From NCBI GenBank assembly GCA_001314545.1, contig LIHN01000022.1:1-64000 (forward strand): a stretch of DNA of 64,000 bases, given 5' to 3'. Origin of the DNA: Bacteroidetes bacterium HLUCCA01 (GTDB lineage: Bacteria > Bacteroidota > Rhodothermia > Balneolales > HLUCCA01). The stretch's first letter is position 1, and every line of letters begins with the position of its first letter. Both the position numbers and the translations under genes were made by a program. This document shows, piece after piece, positions 1,258 to 10,354 of this stretch. The notes under the pieces are model-generated. The model did no database searches and was not told where the DNA came from. It saw only the letters and a list, made by a program, of their open reading frames with translations.

Positions 1258-1740
1258 ATGGTAACCAACCTTAACCAATCCAAAATTACCATGGTAAAGC
1301 ACTTTTCTGAAATCAAAATGACCTATCGTACCGACAAACGGTATAAGGACCTTCCTACGATTCGGGAGCCTGAAGAAGCCGCTCGGCTTCTAAGACGACT
1401 CTGGGACAAGGGTACGCTAGAGCTTCGGGAGGAGTTCATGATACTCATCCTGAATGCGGCAAAGCTGTGTACCGGATGGTGTAAGATGAGCACCGGTGGA
1501 CAAACAGCCACGATTGTGGACCCTGCTGGAGTATTTCGTGTGGCGCTACAAACGAATGCCCACAGTATTATCATCGCACACAATCACCCTTCCAACAACT
1601 GCACAGCTTCACACGCTGATATCCAGTTAACCAAACGGATCCATGAGGCGGGCAGGGTGCTAGGTGTCCAGCTGGAGGATCATATCATCTTGTGTCCGGA
1701 TGGCAGTTATGTAAGCCTTCGCAGTAAAGGTCTGTTCTAG
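1258..1740 (+). CDS. RadC-like JAB/MPN domain protein (short form)
   Basis: The 160-residue protein carries the JAB1/MPN-type metal motif HNHPSNNCTASHAD (H108, H110, S118, D121), the H-x-H-x7-S-x2-D signature of the RadC family. Full-length RadC proteins are about 220 residues with an N-terminal helix-hairpin-helix region. Here that region is replaced by a short unrelated segment, as in the short RadC-like proteins common on Bacteroidota mobile elements. The biochemical role of RadC is unsettled; metal-dependent hydrolase activity is a family expectation. A second in-frame ATG at 1291 lies in a repeated ACCATGGTA (1256-1264 and 1288-1296), so the start is ambiguous. A terminator follows the stop closely. 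Confidence 0.8.
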   Translation: MVTNLNQSKITMVKHFSEIKMTYRTDKRYKDLPTIREPEEAARLLRRLWDKGTLELREEFMILILNAAKLCTGWCKMSTGGQTATIVDPAGVFRVALQTNAHSIIIAHNHPSNNCTASHADIQLTKRIHEAGRVLGVQLEDHIILCPDGSYVSLRSKGLF

Positions 1741-1903: not shown

Positions 1904-1928
1904 AATACATCACAATTCGTGATGTATT
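1904..1928 (+). promoter_or_regulatory. 25-bp palindrome, likely operator of the Panacea-Fic operon
   Basis: Perfect 10-bp arms AATACATCAC (1904-1913) and GTGATGTATT (1919-1928) flank five bases AATTC. The palindrome sits about 100 bp upstream of the antitoxin start at 2025, with AT-rich sequence (TATTATAAGATAA) between them. Such dyads are the usual autoregulatory operator of toxin-antitoxin operons. Neither the Panacea nor the Fic protein shows an obvious DNA-binding domain, so the regulator is not identified. Confidence 0.55.
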
Positions 1929-2024
1929 AAATATGCTTAACTATCGTTATTATAAGATAAACACTACTACCTGTCTCGCATTAATGCTTCACTGACATAA
2001 TACAGAAGGGGGGAGCACCACGTC

Positions 2025-2615
2025 ATGGTATTCCAGAAAATCGATATTGCCAATTATATACTTGCACGACTTGAGGAGCCGGTTTCACCGATGAAACTGC
2101 AAAAGCTGCTCTACTATTGTTATGCCTGGCAATTGGTTGCCGGTGAACATCTTTTTGATGCCCGATTTAAGGCTTGGAAATTTGGTCCTGTTGACATTGA
2201 TATCTATCATGAATTCAAGTCCTTCGGTGCTCATTCGATTCCAAAACCCCCAGTTGTTGGGATCCCAAACTTGCCATTAATCAATTTGGTAGTTGATAGT
2301 TATGGCATTTTTTCTGCAGCTGAATTATCTAAGACAACACACGCTGAGGACCCTTGGAAGAAGTATTTACATACGAACAATTACATCTCTGACGAGGTGA
2401 TGATTCAGTTCTACAGCAAGCAACCGTTCCGAAATAACTTTCCAATTGGTAGCCAAGATGGCTTCTACCCACCCAAAATGGCAAGTCATTATATGTTCAC
2501 ATTTGATATGGAGGATGAGGATATCCCACAATTTGATAGTATCGAAGAATATGTAATGGAGCTTCAGGGATCAAATGATGATTTAACGCAATTCGTCAGT
2601 GAGCAAACAAGCTAA
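2025..2615 (+). CDS. Panacea (DUF4065, SocA/GepA-like) antitoxin
   Basis: The 196-residue protein opens with the Panacea fold signature: DIANYILARL, then SPMKLQKLLYYCYAWQLV (about residues 22-39), then FKAWKFGPVDIDIYHEFK. This domain (DUF4065) is known as a versatile antitoxin that neutralises many unrelated toxins by direct binding. It lies upstream of and overlaps the fic gene by 17 bp, the expected antitoxin-first order. A strong purine-rich ribosome site (AGGGGGGA, about 2006-2013) precedes the ATG. The C-terminal third (about 130-196) is acidic and not conserved in my memory of the family; it may be the toxin-specific part. Function is well supported by family and context. Confidence 0.85.
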   Translation: MVFQKIDIANYILARLEEPVSPMKLQKLLYYCYAWQLVAGEHLFDARFKAWKFGPVDIDIYHEFKSFGAHSIPKPPVVGIPNLPLINLVVDSYGIFSAAELSKTTHAEDPWKKYLHTNNYISDEVMIQFYSKQPFRNNFPIGSQDGFYPPKMASHYMFTFDMEDEDIPQFDSIEEYVMELQGSNDDLTQFVSEQTS

Positions 2616-3267
2616 ATTTGATAGCGAGGAAATCGAATCAATTCGAGATCTGCTCAAAGACTTTGCAGTTAGTGATAGTGTTAGCCCTGAAGATATCTAC
2701 AGAGAGGCCTGGAAGCGATATACCACCTTGGTGGATAGACTACCCTTTCTGAAGGGGAATCTGAGTGTGCAATTTCATGATATTCCCCGCCTCCTGCACC
2801 TATTTATCTATAGAAATCTATTCACTTTTGCGGGTGAATACAGGAAGAAATCCGATCCAGGTGGAGGTAACGTCGGATTTGGTGGAGTACCTTCCCAAAA
2901 ACATAAACAAGCTTTTCCAGCAAGTAATCCAGATAATATCGAGGAGGAAGTGATTGAGGCATTTGAGTTCCTCACGGCAGGATCTGATGAGGATTGCATT
3001 GATCGCGCTATACGGTTTTATCAGAAGTTTGTGCGAACGCATCCATTTTATGATGGTAATGGGCGTATTGCACGCCTAATTACCAATATGTATTTGCAAT
3101 CCTATGATAAGCAAATAGCATGGGGTGAGTTTGACAGCAAGAGTAAGTTTTTAAAGAAACTAAATCAATGCCATAAAAACCCGACTGATGAGAATTTCGG
3201 GTATTTGAAAAGAAAACTTGTGGTCATCGAAATAGGTGACGTAGATGAAGAGGGTGAGTCAGGTTAA
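2599..3267 (+). CDS. Fic/Doc family toxin (putative AMP-transferase)
   Basis: The 222-residue protein contains the complete Fic motif HPFYDGNGRIAR (residues 148-159), matching HxFx(D/E)GNGRxxR. The catalytic His, the phosphate-binding loop and the terminal Arg are all present, which favours true AMPylation over the altered chemistry of Doc. An upstream flap region (YRKKSDPGGGNVGFGG) precedes it. I see no inhibitory (S/T)xxxE(G/N) helix in the protein or in its neighbour, so control probably comes from the Panacea partner rather than a VbhA-type antitoxin. The start is GTG at 2599, inside the antitoxin gene, which would keep toxin synthesis coupled to and lower than antitoxin. The target (tRNA, gyrase, EF-Tu or other) is unknown. 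Confidence 0.85.
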   Translation: MSKQAKFDSEEIESIRDLLKDFAVSDSVSPEDIYREAWKRYTTLVDRLPFLKGNLSVQFHDIPRLLHLFIYRNLFTFAGEYRKKSDPGGGNVGFGGVPSQKHKQAFPASNPDNIEEEVIEAFEFLTAGSDEDCIDRAIRFYQKFVRTHPFYDGNGRIARLITNMYLQSYDKQIAWGEFDSKSKFLKKLNQCHKNPTDENFGYLKRKLVVIEIGDVDEEGESG

Positions 3268-3593: not shown

Positions 3594-4012
3594 TTTAGGG
3601 GTAAAAAAAGGTTGAAAAACATTCCTGCGTATATACCTTAGCACGTATACCCCTGTCCCCGTACTACTATATAATTACCACTAAAGTTTTCCAGTATTTT
3701 ATGGTTTTTCACCTTTATAGGCTCTAGGAGCTGGAACCTCACTCGAAGTAGACAGGACTTGACTCAGTAAACTTTCAATAATTCCCAAATTACCTGTACT
3801 ACTCATAGTGCCGAGATATTAGTCAGTATAATTCACACAAAATATGTGTGATCGGATTCAGCAGATGCCGTCGTAGTCGGCACAAAGTAATGTAAAAAAA
3901 AATCTGGTACCAATGGATTTTGTAACCCCACTGTAACCCCATTTTGAGAAAAGCGCTAAAAATGACCCGATAAATAGCTTAAAAATTACACTCGTAAGTC
4001 ATTGAAAATATT

Positions 4013-4043
4013 GAACCCCGACAGGGTTCAGCTGCCGGGGTTC
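4013..4043 (+). repeat. Inverted repeat at the island/core transition
   Basis: GAACCCCG (4013-4020) and CGGGGTTC (4036-4043) are perfect complements. An internal GGGTTC (4024-4029) can also pair with GAACCC (4013-4018), giving two competing stems. No T-run follows, so it is not a standard terminator. Confidence 0.4.
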
Positions 4044-4183
4044 GTTTCATCCAACCGACGGACACGGAGTCACTAGTTATGTCGTCGATTGTCTAAAATA
4101 TACACATTAATTTTCAGTTCCGTAACACGTAGTGGTCGCTAAACCACCACGACCGGGGCCCCGGTGATAGTCAGGGTTCATTA

Positions 4184-5527: not shown

Positions 5528-6943
5528 TTAAAGTTCTTTGATAGCACCAACCAGGGTCTGCAGCGACTTCTTCGCATCGCCGAAAAACATGTAGGAATTA
5601 TCCAGGTAAAACAGGTCGTTGTCGATGCCGGCGAATCCGGTATTCATTGACCGCTTCAGAATGATGACGGTCTTGGCCTTGTCTACATTCAGTATGGGCA
5701 TACCGTAAATGGGCGAGGCAGGATTATTCCGGGCCTGCGGATTCACCACGTCATTGGCACCAATTACCAGCACCACATCGGTTTTTTCGAATTCGGGGTT
5801 GATATCGTCCATATCATACAGCTGGGGATAGGGTACGTTGGCTTCGGCCAGGAGTACGTTCATGTGTCCGGGCATCCGACCGGCAACCGGGTGAATACCG
5901 TATTTGACGTCCACGCCCTTGGCTTCCAGCAGACTGGCAACCTCGCGGATGGTATGCTGAGCCTGCGCAACGGCAAGTCCATAGCCCGGTACGATGACCA
6001 CGCGCTGGGCATAAGCCGTCATTACAGCTACATCATCGGCCATGGCCTCTTTGTAGTTCTTAGGACCGCCTTCACCCACAGCTGCCGCGCCGCCGTCGCC
6101 ACCAAAGGCGCCGAATAGCACGTTGGTCAGGGTTCGGTTCATGGCTTTACACATGATGTTGGTGAGGATGAGTCCGGAAGCCCCCACCAGCGCGCCGGCG
6201 ATGATGAGCAGACTGTTGCCTACTACAAACCCGGCCGCAGAGGCTGCAATCCCCGACAGGGAGTTCAGCAGGGAGATAACTACTGGCATATCCGCACCAC
6301 CGATGGGAATAACAAAAAGGATACCCAGCAACAAGGATATACCGAGCACAATCAGCAGGGGTACCAGGTAGGTCGGGTCAATTACGAAATACACCGACAG
6401 CCCCAGAATAACGACCATCAGCAGGGCATTCAGTGGTTTTTGACCGGGGAAGGTGATGGGATTCCCTGAAATTTTACCGCTGAGTTTGGCATAGGCAATC
6501 AGCGATCCGGTGAAGGTCACCGAACCGATGAAAATACTGATACACATGATGAAAAGATCGCTTCCCGGCAGGTTCACCTCGGCAATCCGCAGGTACTCAC
6601 CGGCGGCCACCAGGGCTGAGGCAGCGCCCCCGAATCCGTTGAAAACGGCCACCAGTTCCGGCATGGAGGTCATTTCAACGCGTTTGGCCAGCAGGGCGCC
6701 AATCGCGGTGCCCACAATAACACCGATGATGATGTACTCGAAGGATATGATTTCACGGTCGAATAATGTTACGATGACCCCGATGAACATGGCCAGGGAG
6801 GCCAGCTGATTGCCTGAACGGGCCGTTGCCGGCGAACCGAGTCGTTTCAGACCGATGATGAACATGGATGCAGTAATCAGGTAGACGATCTGTACAAAGG
6901 TGGGCAGGTACACTGCGATGGATTCCGGTAAAAAGGTACTCAT
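5528..6943 (-). CDS. pntB: Proton-translocating NAD(P) transhydrogenase subunit beta
   Basis: The 471-residue protein couples proton entry to hydride transfer from NADH to NADP+. About nine membrane segments fill residues 10-265. The NADP-binding domain III occupies about 300-471, with the fingerprints GYGLAVAQAQ, GRMPGHMNVLLAEANVPY, IGANDVVNP and KRSMNTGFAGIDN. The length matches the family. Its ATG overlaps the TGA of the upstream pntAB by one base, so translation is coupled. It is the last gene of a pntAA-pntAB-pntB operon on the minus strand. Confidence 0.97.
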   Translation of the reverse strand: MSTFLPESIAVYLPTFVQIVYLITASMFIIGLKRLGSPATARSGNQLASLAMFIGVIVTLFDREIISFEYIIIGVIVGTAIGALLAKRVEMTSMPELVAVFNGFGGAASALVAAGEYLRIAEVNLPGSDLFIMCISIFIGSVTFTGSLIAYAKLSGKISGNPITFPGQKPLNALLMVVILGLSVYFVIDPTYLVPLLIVLGISLLLGILFVIPIGGADMPVVISLLNSLSGIAASAAGFVVGNSLLIIAGALVGASGLILTNIMCKAMNRTLTNVLFGAFGGDGGAAAVGEGGPKNYKEAMADDVAVMTAYAQRVVIVPGYGLAVAQAQHTIREVASLLEAKGVDVKYGIHPVAGRMPGHMNVLLAEANVPYPQLYDMDDINPEFEKTDVVLVIGANDVVNPQARNNPASPIYGMPILNVDKAKTVIILKRSMNTGFAGIDNDLFYLDNSYMFFGDAKKSLQTLVGAIKEL

Positions 6944-7233
6944 CAGTTATCTCCATCTTTTTTCTTGAACATTTCCAGCATGCGGTCGGTCACCATGAAG
7001 CCGCCTACCACATTGATGGTGGCGAAAATGATGGCAGCCAGCCCGATCCAGGTGCCGATGGCTTCACCGCCCGATCCGGCCACAATAAGGGCTCCGATGA
7101 GCGTGATGCCGGAAATGGCATTCGCGCCCGACATCAGCGGGGTGTGCAGGGTGGTGGGTACTTTGGAGATCACCTCGAAACCGACGAAACACGCCAGTAC
7201 AAAGATGAAAATGTTGACAAGTAAGGGTTCCAT
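6943..7233 (-). CDS. pntAB: NAD(P) transhydrogenase subunit alpha, membrane part
   Basis: The 96-residue protein is the membrane portion of the alpha subunit, encoded separately as in Rhodospirillum and many Bacteroidota. It has three membrane helices and the conserved VPTTLHTPLMSGANAISGITLIGAL stretch (key residues P26, H30, P32, N38, G42). It overlaps pntB by one base. A gap of 139 bases separates it from pntAA, longer than expected for this operon; I see no gene there. Confidence 0.95.
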   Translation of the reverse strand: MEPLLVNIFIFVLACFVGFEVISKVPTTLHTPLMSGANAISGITLIGALIVAGSGGEAIGTWIGLAAIIFATINVVGGFMVTDRMLEMFKKKDGDN

Positions 7234-7372
7234 AGTTTTAAATGATCTGATTATCGGAAAGTTGATGCGGCCCGATGTGCCGGGGCCGGCGGATTATCAT
7301 GCGATGCTTGAGGAATGGGGTGGCGGCAGCTTACTGCCCGGTCAGACTACTCATTCCCGGCACGTACAATCC

Positions 7373-8512
7373 TTAGCCATCCAGCCCAAGAAGTCCGCGG
7401 ATTACCGGACTATGAATTTGGCCGTTGTGGGTTACGGTGGTCTCGTTGATCACCTGATCTTCAAAATCGAGGTTGATTCCTTCTTCACTCAACAGCAGCT
7501 GAAGCAGGGCAAACACATTGCGTGCGTACAACTGAGAAGCGTGTAATGACAGCTGCGAGGGCAGGTTGGTGGGACCCAGAATCTTCACATTGTGGGCCAC
7601 AACCACTTCGTCGGCTTGCGTGAGTTCGCAGTTACCTCCCTGCTCGGCAGCAAGGTCCACAATCACCGATCCGGCCGACATTTCCGCTACGGTTTCTTTG
7701 AATATCAGTTTAGGGGCCGGCTTACCTGGAATCAGCGCGGTTGTAATGACGATGTCGGAGGCAACCACATGCTTGTGCATGGCCTCTTTCTGCAGTTGTT
7801 TACTGGCCTCGGAGAGTTCCTTAGCATAGCCGCCCGTGGTCTCAGCGTTCTGGTCTTCCTCAGCGAGGGGGATGTCCACAAATTTGGCGCCCAGGCTTTC
7901 AACCTGTTCCTTCACAGCCGGTCGGACGTCGAAGGCTTCAACCACAGCCCCGAGCCTTCGTGCGGTGGCAATGGCCTGGAGTCCGGCCACACCGGCACCC
8001 ACAATGAGCACCTTGGCCGGGGCGATGGTTCCGGCAGCGGTCATCATCATGGGCAGGTATTTGCCCAGGTTATCAGCGCCCATGAGAACGGCTTTGTAAC
8101 CGGCGATGGAGCTCATTGAGGATAAGGCATCCATTTTCTGTGCCCGGGTGATACGGGGAACAGCTTCCATCCCGAGCGCGGTAATCTTCTGTTTATTCAG
8201 CAGGTCGAGGGTGTCCCGGTTCTGTGCTGCCCACAAAAAGCTGATAAGTATCGCGCCTTCTTTCATGGCAGCGATCTGCTGCGATTCAGGTTTTTGTACT
8301 TTCAGGACGATGTCGCTGCCGGTGATGGCGTCATCCACCATATTCACGCCGGCTGCCTGGTAGGCTTCATCGGTGAAGTGTGCGGCAAGACCGGCACCTT
8401 TTTCAACGCGGACTTCCGCTCCGAGTTTGATAATCTGGGCGGCGACGTCCGGATTCAGGGCAACCCGGTGTTCACCTTTTGCCGTCTCTTTGGGTACTCC
8501 TACAGTAATCAT
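7373..8512 (-). CDS. pntAA: NAD(P) transhydrogenase subunit alpha, NAD-binding part
   Basis: The soluble domain I binds NAD(H) and passes hydride to domain III of PntB. The protein has 379 residues from the ATG at 8512 (MITVGVPKET). I prefer this start to an in-frame ATG at 8602 because family members begin exactly here and a CAGAGG ribosome site precedes it. Diagnostic segments are RITRAQKMDALSSMSSIAGY, the Rossmann motif VLIVGAGVAGLQA and FDVRPAVKEQVESLGA. It is related to alanine dehydrogenase, but the three-gene context settles the assignment. The divergent APC permease shares the upstream region, which contains a 12-bp minisatellite. Confidence 0.96.
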   Translation of the reverse strand: MITVGVPKETAKGEHRVALNPDVAAQIIKLGAEVRVEKGAGLAAHFTDEAYQAAGVNMVDDAITGSDIVLKVQKPESQQIAAMKEGAILISFLWAAQNRDTLDLLNKQKITALGMEAVPRITRAQKMDALSSMSSIAGYKAVLMGADNLGKYLPMMMTAAGTIAPAKVLIVGAGVAGLQAIATARRLGAVVEAFDVRPAVKEQVESLGAKFVDIPLAEEDQNAETTGGYAKELSEASKQLQKEAMHKHVVASDIVITTALIPGKPAPKLIFKETVAEMSAGSVIVDLAAEQGGNCELTQADEVVVAHNVKILGPTNLPSQLSLHASQLYARNVFALLQLLLSEEGINLDFEDQVINETTVTHNGQIHSPVIRGLLGLDG

Positions 8513-8796
8513 GTTGACCTCTGGCAGTAAATGTTCGGTACGAGCGCAGACCGGCCGCTGGCGGGGTGGTCTGGCGGGATTGTAAACGGGGTGCTGGTGC
8601 ATGCTGAAAGGGTTCCGGCTGAGGGCTCAGACACGCGCCTGGCGGGCAGGCGGACCGGCACTTATTCTCACAACACACGCACTTGCATCCGTTTAACATA
8701 ATGCTTTTTATAAGGTTTGCCAAAGTCGTGGAAGCCCTTTTATTTCACTTTTTTTGTCAAACTTTACATTTAATCCCTGATATTTATCGCATCTTA

Positions 8797-8986
8797 GGCG
8801 CTCACGGCTGCGCTCACGGCTGCGCTCACGGCTGCGCTCACGGCTGCGCTCACGGCTGCGCTCACGGCTGCGCTCACGGCTGCGCTCACGGCTGCGGCTG
8901 CGCTCACGGCTGCGCTCACGGCTGCGCTCACGGCTGCGCTCACGGCTGCGCTCACGGCTGCGCTCACGGCTGCGCTCACGGCTGCA
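8797..8986. repeat. 12-bp minisatellite (unit GCTGCGCTCACG), about 15 copies
   Basis: CTCACGGCTGCG recurs about 15 times with almost no substitutions. The only irregularity is one 6-bp extra GCTGCG after the copy at 8885. The array lies in the 534-bp divergent region between pntAA (start 8512) and the APC permease (start 9047). Because the unit length is a multiple of three, open frames run through it on both strands (CAHG, RERS and AAVS repeats). I judge these to be artefacts. Confidence 0.95.
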
Positions 8987-9046
8987 ACGCACCTCGCCGT
9001 ACGGCATACTTCCAGAAACCCATTTCCGTCACTACACCCACACGCT

Positions 9047-10354
9047 ATGCAGACACCAGACACCGAACCCCTGAAGCGCCAGCTTACCACCACCGGAATC
9101 TGGGTGCTGGCCATCAACGGCTTCATCGGGGCCGGTATTTTCGGGTCACCCGCGGCCGTCGCCGGATATATGGGCCCTTACGGTGCGCTGCTCTTTCTGG
9201 GCTGCGGATTGCTCATGCTTACCGTCATCCTCAGCTTCGCCGAAATCTCCAGCTATTTCAAAAACACGGGCGGACCGGTTCAGTACACCCGACGTGTTTT
9301 TGGCCCATTTGTGGGGTTTCAGACGGGGTGGGCCTTCTACATCGCACGATTAACCGCATTTGCCGCCAACGTTAACCTGCTGGTCAGTACGATGGGGTTC
9401 TTTTTTGAGGAATTAACCGGAGGCGCTGCCCGTATCCTCACCCTGTTTGCCATCGTCGCTTTCCTGGCCTGGGTCAATGTACGGGGCGCAAAGGAAGCGA
9501 TGGCCTCAGTGGGTGTGTTAACCCTGCTCAAATTTATTCCTCTGATGGTGCTGGTACTCGGCGGGGTCTTGTATCTGAGTCCGGAGGCCGTGGGAATCGG
9601 CTCCGACCATCCGCTGCCGGATGCAACCACCTTCGGCGCTGCGGCGCTGCTCGTCATTTATGCTTTTGTAGGCTGGGAGGCCGCCGTCATCCCCGCCGGC
9701 GAATCGAAAAATCCGGTACGCGATATGCCCCGGGCTTTGATTTTAGCACTGATTACGGTTACGGTGCTCTACACCCTCATTCAGGCCGCCGGTTATGCCA
9801 TCCTGGGTGAAGGTCTGGCGCAGACCGAGCGACCCCTGGTTGAGGCTGCCAGCGCCATGCTCGGCACCACAGGAGCGGTGATACTCATGATCGGCGTGGT
9901 GGTATCAGTGGGAGGGAATGTTGCCAGCACCATGTTTACCACGCCCCGGCTCACCTACGCCATGGCGCGTGATGGTAAATTACCGGAATTCTTTGCCCGG
10001 GTTCATCCGATCTATAACACACCGGTCGGCTCGGTGGTATTTTTCTCCGTGCTTGTTTTCGTGTTGTCGGTCTACGGTTCATTTGTCTGGCTGGCCGCAC
10101 TCAGCGCCCTGGTCCGCATCCTGATCTACATGCTGTGCATCGCTGCCATTCCGTCGCTGCGCAAAAACGACACAAACACCGATGAACCCCGTTTCCGGCT
10201 TCCGGGCGGGTATACCATTCCGGCAATAGCAATGATAATCTGCGCCTGGTTACTGCTTTCTGTGAGCACGACCTCTATTCTGGCAACCCTTACTTTTCTG
10301 GGAATCGGGGCTTTGGTTTATGTATGGATGACCCGAACCGCCGCAGCAGGCTAA
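9047..10354 (+). CDS. APC-superfamily amino acid permease
   Basis: The 435-residue inner-membrane protein has about 12 hydrophobic segments. Its first helix carries the APC signature GFIGAGIFGSPAAVAGYMGP (G-x-G-I-F-G substrate loop). Helix 6-type sequence FVGWEAAVIPAGESKNP and the helix 8-type TPRLTYAMARDGKLP also match amino acid/polyamine/organocation transporters. The substrate cannot be deduced. It is divergent from pntAA across the 12-bp repeat array, and its 3' end overlaps the convergent lipoprotein gene by four bases. Confidence 0.85.
   Translation: MQTPDTEPLKRQLTTTGIWVLAINGFIGAGIFGSPAAVAGYMGPYGALLFLGCGLLMLTVILSFAEISSYFKNTGGPVQYTRRVFGPFVGFQTGWAFYIARLTAFAANVNLLVSTMGFFFEELTGGAARILTLFAIVAFLAWVNVRGAKEAMASVGVLTLLKFIPLMVLVLGGVLYLSPEAVGIGSDHPLPDATTFGAAALLVIYAFVGWEAAVIPAGESKNPVRDMPRALILALITVTVLYTLIQAAGYAILGEGLAQTERPLVEAASAMLGTTGAVILMIGVVVSVGGNVASTMFTTPRLTYAMARDGKLPEFFARVHPIYNTPVGSVVFFSVLVFVLSVYGSFVWLAALSALVRILIYMLCIAAIPSLRKNDTNTDEPRFRLPGGYTIPAIAMIICAWLLLSVSTTSILATLTFLGIGALVYVWMTRTAAAG

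Follow-up and report, generated by a model that had tools for sequence, protein, structure and literature searches.

Organization of the Panacea-Fic locus

How is a Fic enzyme with an intact AMPylase-type motif restrained when neither the enzyme nor the protein encoded directly ahead of it carries a recognizable inhibitory helix? This question is raised by a gene pair of Bacteroidetes bacterium HLUCCA01 (genome size 3.37 Mb), located at the start of the contig designated here C5, whose first 64,000 nucleotides were analyzed and are referred to as the window. The pair consists of the following genes:

2025 to 2615, plus strand: gene of a putative PanA-type antitoxin, 196 amino acids, with a Panacea/SocA-like domain (PF13274, E 8.3e-14; model pLDDT 88.9)
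2599 to 3267, plus strand: gene of a putative Fic toxin, 222 amino acids, GTG start (PF02661, E 1.6e-14; model pLDDT 76.2)

An earlier note, made from the nucleotide sequence alone, had described a Panacea (DUF4065) gene overlapping a Fic gene that starts with GTG and encodes the full catalytic motif, and all of this was borne out. The PF13274 match exceeded the curated cut-off, residues 25-72 being aligned with positions 1-49 of the 113 in the model, and the two open reading frames (ORFs), which lie in different frames, share 17 nt. The catalytic motif of the Fic protein, HPFYDGNGRIAR, is complete from His148 to Arg159 and corresponds to the Fic AMPylase motif HxFx(D/E)GNGRxxR; its His, Asn, Gly and both Arg residues are invariant across 14 sequences, while the first Gly is replaced by Ala in some relatives. 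The motif belongs to the AMP-transferring type. The predicted structure of the Fic protein is of moderate confidence, with its least reliable parts at the two termini and near residues 40-60, and the alignments used for structure prediction, which comprised the window proteins and the set of related loci only, were of shallower depth. Its best matches among solved structures were EcFicT with EcFicA (the top one), FICD, NmFic and VbhT with VbhA. As for the Panacea protein, it did not qualify as a member of the type VI SocAB systems (60.5 bits against the SocA equivalog NF047745, with a cut-off of 190). A fused PanA-Fic chain, in which AGCT is read as one four-base word joining the two frames, was rejected as a construct that is not a product of this DNA, frameshifting being unsupported.

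Two further features precede the pair, the first of them a neighbor that does not belong to it:

1258 to 1740, plus strand: gene of a RadC-like JAB protein, an island neighbor (PF04002, E 7.6e-34)
1904 to 1928, no strand assigned: perfect inverted repeat AATACATCAC-AATTC-GTGATGTATT (10-5-10), 97 nt upstream of the Panacea start

The repeat lies between a terminator-like stem (1747-1771) downstream of the RadC-like gene and the antitoxin gene, and had been proposed in the earlier note to be a strong palindromic operator. The repeat itself is exact, and a perfect 10-nt arm was reached just twice in 1000 dinucleotide-shuffled versions of the intergenic region 1741-2024 (284 nt), but its reading as an operator fared less well, as the repeat recurs upstream in none of the 15 relatives, and we rejected it as a family-wide operator. 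No other copies within 3 mismatches were found in the window, and one site with 3 mismatches is present elsewhere in the genome. Since domain profile searches recognized no DNA-binding domain in either the Panacea or the Fic protein, in agreement with the earlier note, we do not call the repeat an operator; it may be a local one.

Conservation and distribution of the pair

Fic homologs were collected from GTDB contigs, viral contigs and genomes of the phylum (394) and of the order (129), those that exceeded 150 bits with the subfamily model being taken as the subfamily of the window protein; the remaining Fic ORFs fell below this value, and the two groups were well separated. A Panacea ORF was located directly upstream of all 15 distinct subfamily Fic ORFs and, at the locus examined, next to none of the 126 distinct more distant ones, although the latter were gathered with catalytic-motif patterns, are enriched in class II enzymes and include related sequences, so that these counts do not represent independent events. 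Because Panacea adjoins every subfamily Fic gene and none of the others, the pairing is beyond chance. The two-gene neighborhood, a hallmark of PanAT systems, is thus kept across genomes in 15/15 members, and in every pair the genes either overlap by 4 to 23 nt or are separated by a 2-nt gap.

Subfamily members occur in Balneolales, where the genome studied belongs to a family other than that of most relatives and one relative is a Balneola MAG, in another family of the phylum (L010), in metagenome-assembled genomes (MAGs) labelled Desulfopila (L018, Desulfobacterota) and Calditrichia (L019, Calditrichota), and on a viral contig (L097). Within the order the distribution is patchy (11 of 129 genomes). 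On the viral contig the pair adjoins terminase and portal genes (5566-8717), that is, it travels on a phage; searches of plasmids and phage records at E 1e-5 retrieved no Fic homologs, and an initial scan of viral contigs with alignment A1 of Panacea gave no confirmed relative. In the Desulfopila MAG, genes of an AbiEi/AbiEii type IV toxin-antitoxin system (L018, 1740-3165) are situated upstream of the pair. The genome that carries the window has five more Fic-domain genes (contigs C17, C8 and C11), one of them in a frame of Doc size (131 amino acids).

Search for an inhibitory helix

Fic enzymes are classed by the source of their inhibitory helix. With the helix motif (S/T)xxxE(G/N) sought 100-170 residues before the catalytic His, 117 of the 126 other Fic proteins possessed it in place (about 11 of 126 being expected from shuffling), versus none of the 15 subfamily members, one of which (L016) is a broken gene with the N-terminus missing from the ORF counted. 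No C-terminal copy of the motif was detected in the subfamily either (0/15), and consequently its enzymes show neither the N-terminal nor the C-terminal helix of their own that characterizes classes II and III. The helix in trans that defines class I was not recognized either: the motif is absent from both window proteins and from 13 of the 15 other subfamily antitoxins, while the matches in the remaining two (L148 and L018) occupy different, unconserved positions. With 0/15 Fic proteins against 117/126, and no conserved site in the antitoxins, the absence of a visible helix stated in the earlier note for the two window proteins applies to the whole family. Its further statement, that inhibition must work differently, was too strong, as a helix without a recognizable motif could fill the same place.

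Such a helix, with a diverged motif and belonging to the antitoxin or to the N-terminus of the Fic protein, might enter the usual inhibitory site, which would make the pair a class I system in disguise. Two near-misses, TFDMED (PanA residues 159-164) and SEEIES (Fic residues 9-14), prompt this idea, along with the long helix at the antitoxin end and the presence, among the nearest folds, of Fic proteins whose structures were determined together with class I antitoxins; besides, Glu11 of the Fic protein is conserved in 13 of 14 sequences and precedes the catalytic His by 137 residues. However, the Ser/Thr and Glu positions of both near-misses are not conserved, and we rejected them as inhibitory motifs; in addition, alignment A8, which is weak in this region, places Ser29 and not Glu11 opposite the inhibitory Glu residues found in 14 distant Fic proteins. 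We regard a disguised class I system as unlikely, bearing in mind that it would overlap with restraint by the antitoxin tail, considered below, if the helix in question were the C-terminal one of the antitoxin.

C-terminal module of the antitoxin

Comparison within the subfamily and the predicted secondary structure delimit one more feature of the antitoxin gene:

2421 to 2612, plus strand: C-terminal module (approximately amino acids 133-196 of the antitoxin), a candidate Fic-neutralizing element

Among 112 distinct Panacea ORFs, the module was present in all 16 of the subfamily, which reach the end of the Panacea model (positions 196-202), and in none of the other 96, which stop at position 145 or earlier. 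As this model derives from the subfamily, subfamily members were bound to fit best, and the informative point is that the others, taken from viral contigs whatever their partner genes, match the core and end there. The sole carrier of the module lacking a Fic partner is an orphan antitoxin of genome G112. In the AlphaFold2 model of PanA, a high-confidence core up to about residue 130 is followed by an extended, less certain stretch and a long helix at residues 173-195, the lowest certainty falling at about residues 141-180 (block pLDDT 60-84). Predicted viral proteins of 147-157 amino acids are similar to the core in fold, and no match of the Panacea protein to solved structures was found by sequence or fold.

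For the PanA antitoxin of Corynebacterium doosanense, C-terminal helices were shown to bind a Doc-like toxin at its active site and to suffice for its neutralization, even when fused to SUMO (PMC10440598). Because of this analogy, we propose that the tail of the subfamily antitoxins (about residues 133-196) restrains the Fic protein, probably substituting for the missing inhibitory helix. The Panacea core could instead block the Fic protein, as in the B. choladocola pair, the module serving for stability, dimerization or another role. Direct neutralization by a Panacea core is documented (PMC10440598), and core residues are highly conserved in the subfamily too, but the same conservation is seen in Panacea proteins without a Fic partner, whereas it is the C-terminal module that tracks with Fic, and neutralization by the core therefore appears rather improbable.

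Decay of the pair and its putative island setting

Decay of the pair was seen in one direction. In genome G442 the Fic frame is broken by a TAA codon after residue 54 and the antitoxin is intact; in genome G112 the antitoxin stands alone, with no detectable Fic remnant; and no Fic protein without Panacea was seen among the subfamily members found. Loss of Fic with retention of the antitoxin, observed here in two genomes and thus in few cases, is what a toxic role of Fic would predict. Downstream of the orphan antitoxin gene (L148, 1474-2076) a two-gene ParE-like module was recognized by eye.

In the window, the G+C content is 29-46% up to about 4 kb and 50-58% past this point. An undisturbed site is represented by genome G380 of the same genus, where a conserved element of 110 nt is contiguous with the genes of a porin and an aminotransferase. 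In the genome studied, the porin side ends in this element at window positions 4005-4114, and the aminotransferase side is found on contig C1. The repeats at the boundary are as follows:

4005 to 4071, no strand assigned: putative attR repeat of the island, 67 nt (second copy at C1 11725-11791, minus strand, 98.5% identical)
3906 to 3945, no strand assigned: direct repeat of 40 nt, immediately within the island end (found unchanged at C1 11582-11621, next to an integrase gene)

On contig C1 the copy of the element is followed by a gene of a tyrosine integrase with an arm-binding domain (L370, 10307-11557) and by the genes of the Shango system SngA, SngB and SngC (L370, 4256-10051; E 1.9e-88, 7e-185 and 2.9e-263, respectively). 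Shango is an anti-phage system for which protection of Pseudomonas aeruginosa has been demonstrated (PMC10250203). A distance of 738 nt separates the end of the Panacea-Fic pair from the putative attR. The simplest reading of this arrangement is one integrated island with its two ends on two contigs, and a fragment of an IS110-type transposase gene at the end of contig C1 (L370, 3-821) is the likely reason for the assembly break inside it.

The 4005-4114 element (minus strand) is 95% identical in G380 and 83-84% identical in G450 and G448, and was found in no other of the 129 genomes of the order. It is structured on the minus strand (RNA fold z-score -5.5), and Rfam, tRNA and tmRNA searches gave no match; possibly, it is a new RNA gene serving as an integration site. 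Two other observations concern the window. Inside the island, a 169-aa ORF on the minus strand (284-793) gave a weak C-terminal match to the DnaJ domain, below the cut-off. Positions 8683-9375, between transhydrogenase and transporter genes, contain a long in-phase short tandem repeat that is open in several frames (HGCAHGCA / RERSRERS).

Fic proteins are not toxic in every case, and the locus might encode a modification enzyme that is regulated by Panacea and serves housekeeping or signalling, but the patchy occurrence, the position beside an island end and, in one relative, among phage genes, the asymmetric decay and the published Panacea pattern make this very unlikely.

Proposed mode of action and relation to known systems

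Considering the above, we favor, with moderate confidence, a two-gene type II toxin-antitoxin module at the end of an island, in which the Panacea tail restrains a helix-less AMPylase-type Fic toxin. The Panacea protein would be translated first from the common transcript and would bind the Fic protein, an AMPylase-type enzyme without an inhibitory helix of its own; the subfamily-specific C-terminal module would cover or distort the Fic active site, and the Panacea core would hold this module and may sense a trigger. As the pair is located at the end of a putative island together with an integrase and Shango, it may stabilize the island or act in phage defense. A bolder version, with the helix lost and replaced by a dedicated module on a Panacea sensor, so that the pair would represent a separate mode of Fic control triggered by phages in mobile defense islands, seems possible but doubtful to us.

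PanA-PanT systems, including the PanA-Fic/Doc pair of C. doosanense, whose proteins form a stable complex, were described by Kurata et al. (2022; PMC8832971), who reported 32 Fic/Doc-like Panacea partners, one of them tested, and the subfamily considered here may be among the 32. Panacea-Fic/Doc pairs being already known, the kind of system is not new. Like the C. doosanense pair, the present one combines a Panacea antitoxin extended C-terminally past the core with a toxin of the Fic/Doc family; however, the toxin of C. doosanense resembles the kinase Doc, with which its active-site residues are conserved, whereas here the motif is of the AMPylase type (HPFYDxNGRxxR). Panacea antitoxins with a Phd-C element carry helices at the C-terminus, related to those of Phd, that occupy the active site of the toxin; the C-terminal module seen here includes a long helix, which may or may not be akin to Phd-C. 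With the class I systems VbhT-VbhA and EcFicT-EcFicA the pair shares an AMPylase-type Fic protein encoded beside a partner gene and, in the case of EcFicT, the best fold match, but its partner is a Panacea protein without a recognizable (S/T)xxxE(G/N) helix. The Fic fold and catalytic motif are also shared with SoFic-type class II enzymes, including the anti-phage protein Sofic (PMC12249575), as is reflected in a weak PADLOC SoFic match (E 2e-11); unlike this Fic subfamily, those enzymes bear the inhibitory helix in their own N-terminus.

On the level of sequence, the subfamily appears to be set apart by the combination of an AMPylase-type motif, the lack of a recognizable inhibitory helix in either partner and an antitoxin tail that tracks with Fic. 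A helix-less subfamily braked by a Panacea tail would extend the classification of Fic enzymes by their inhibitory helix, and would add an AMPylase-type case to the idea of exchangeable neutralizing elements on Panacea antitoxins.
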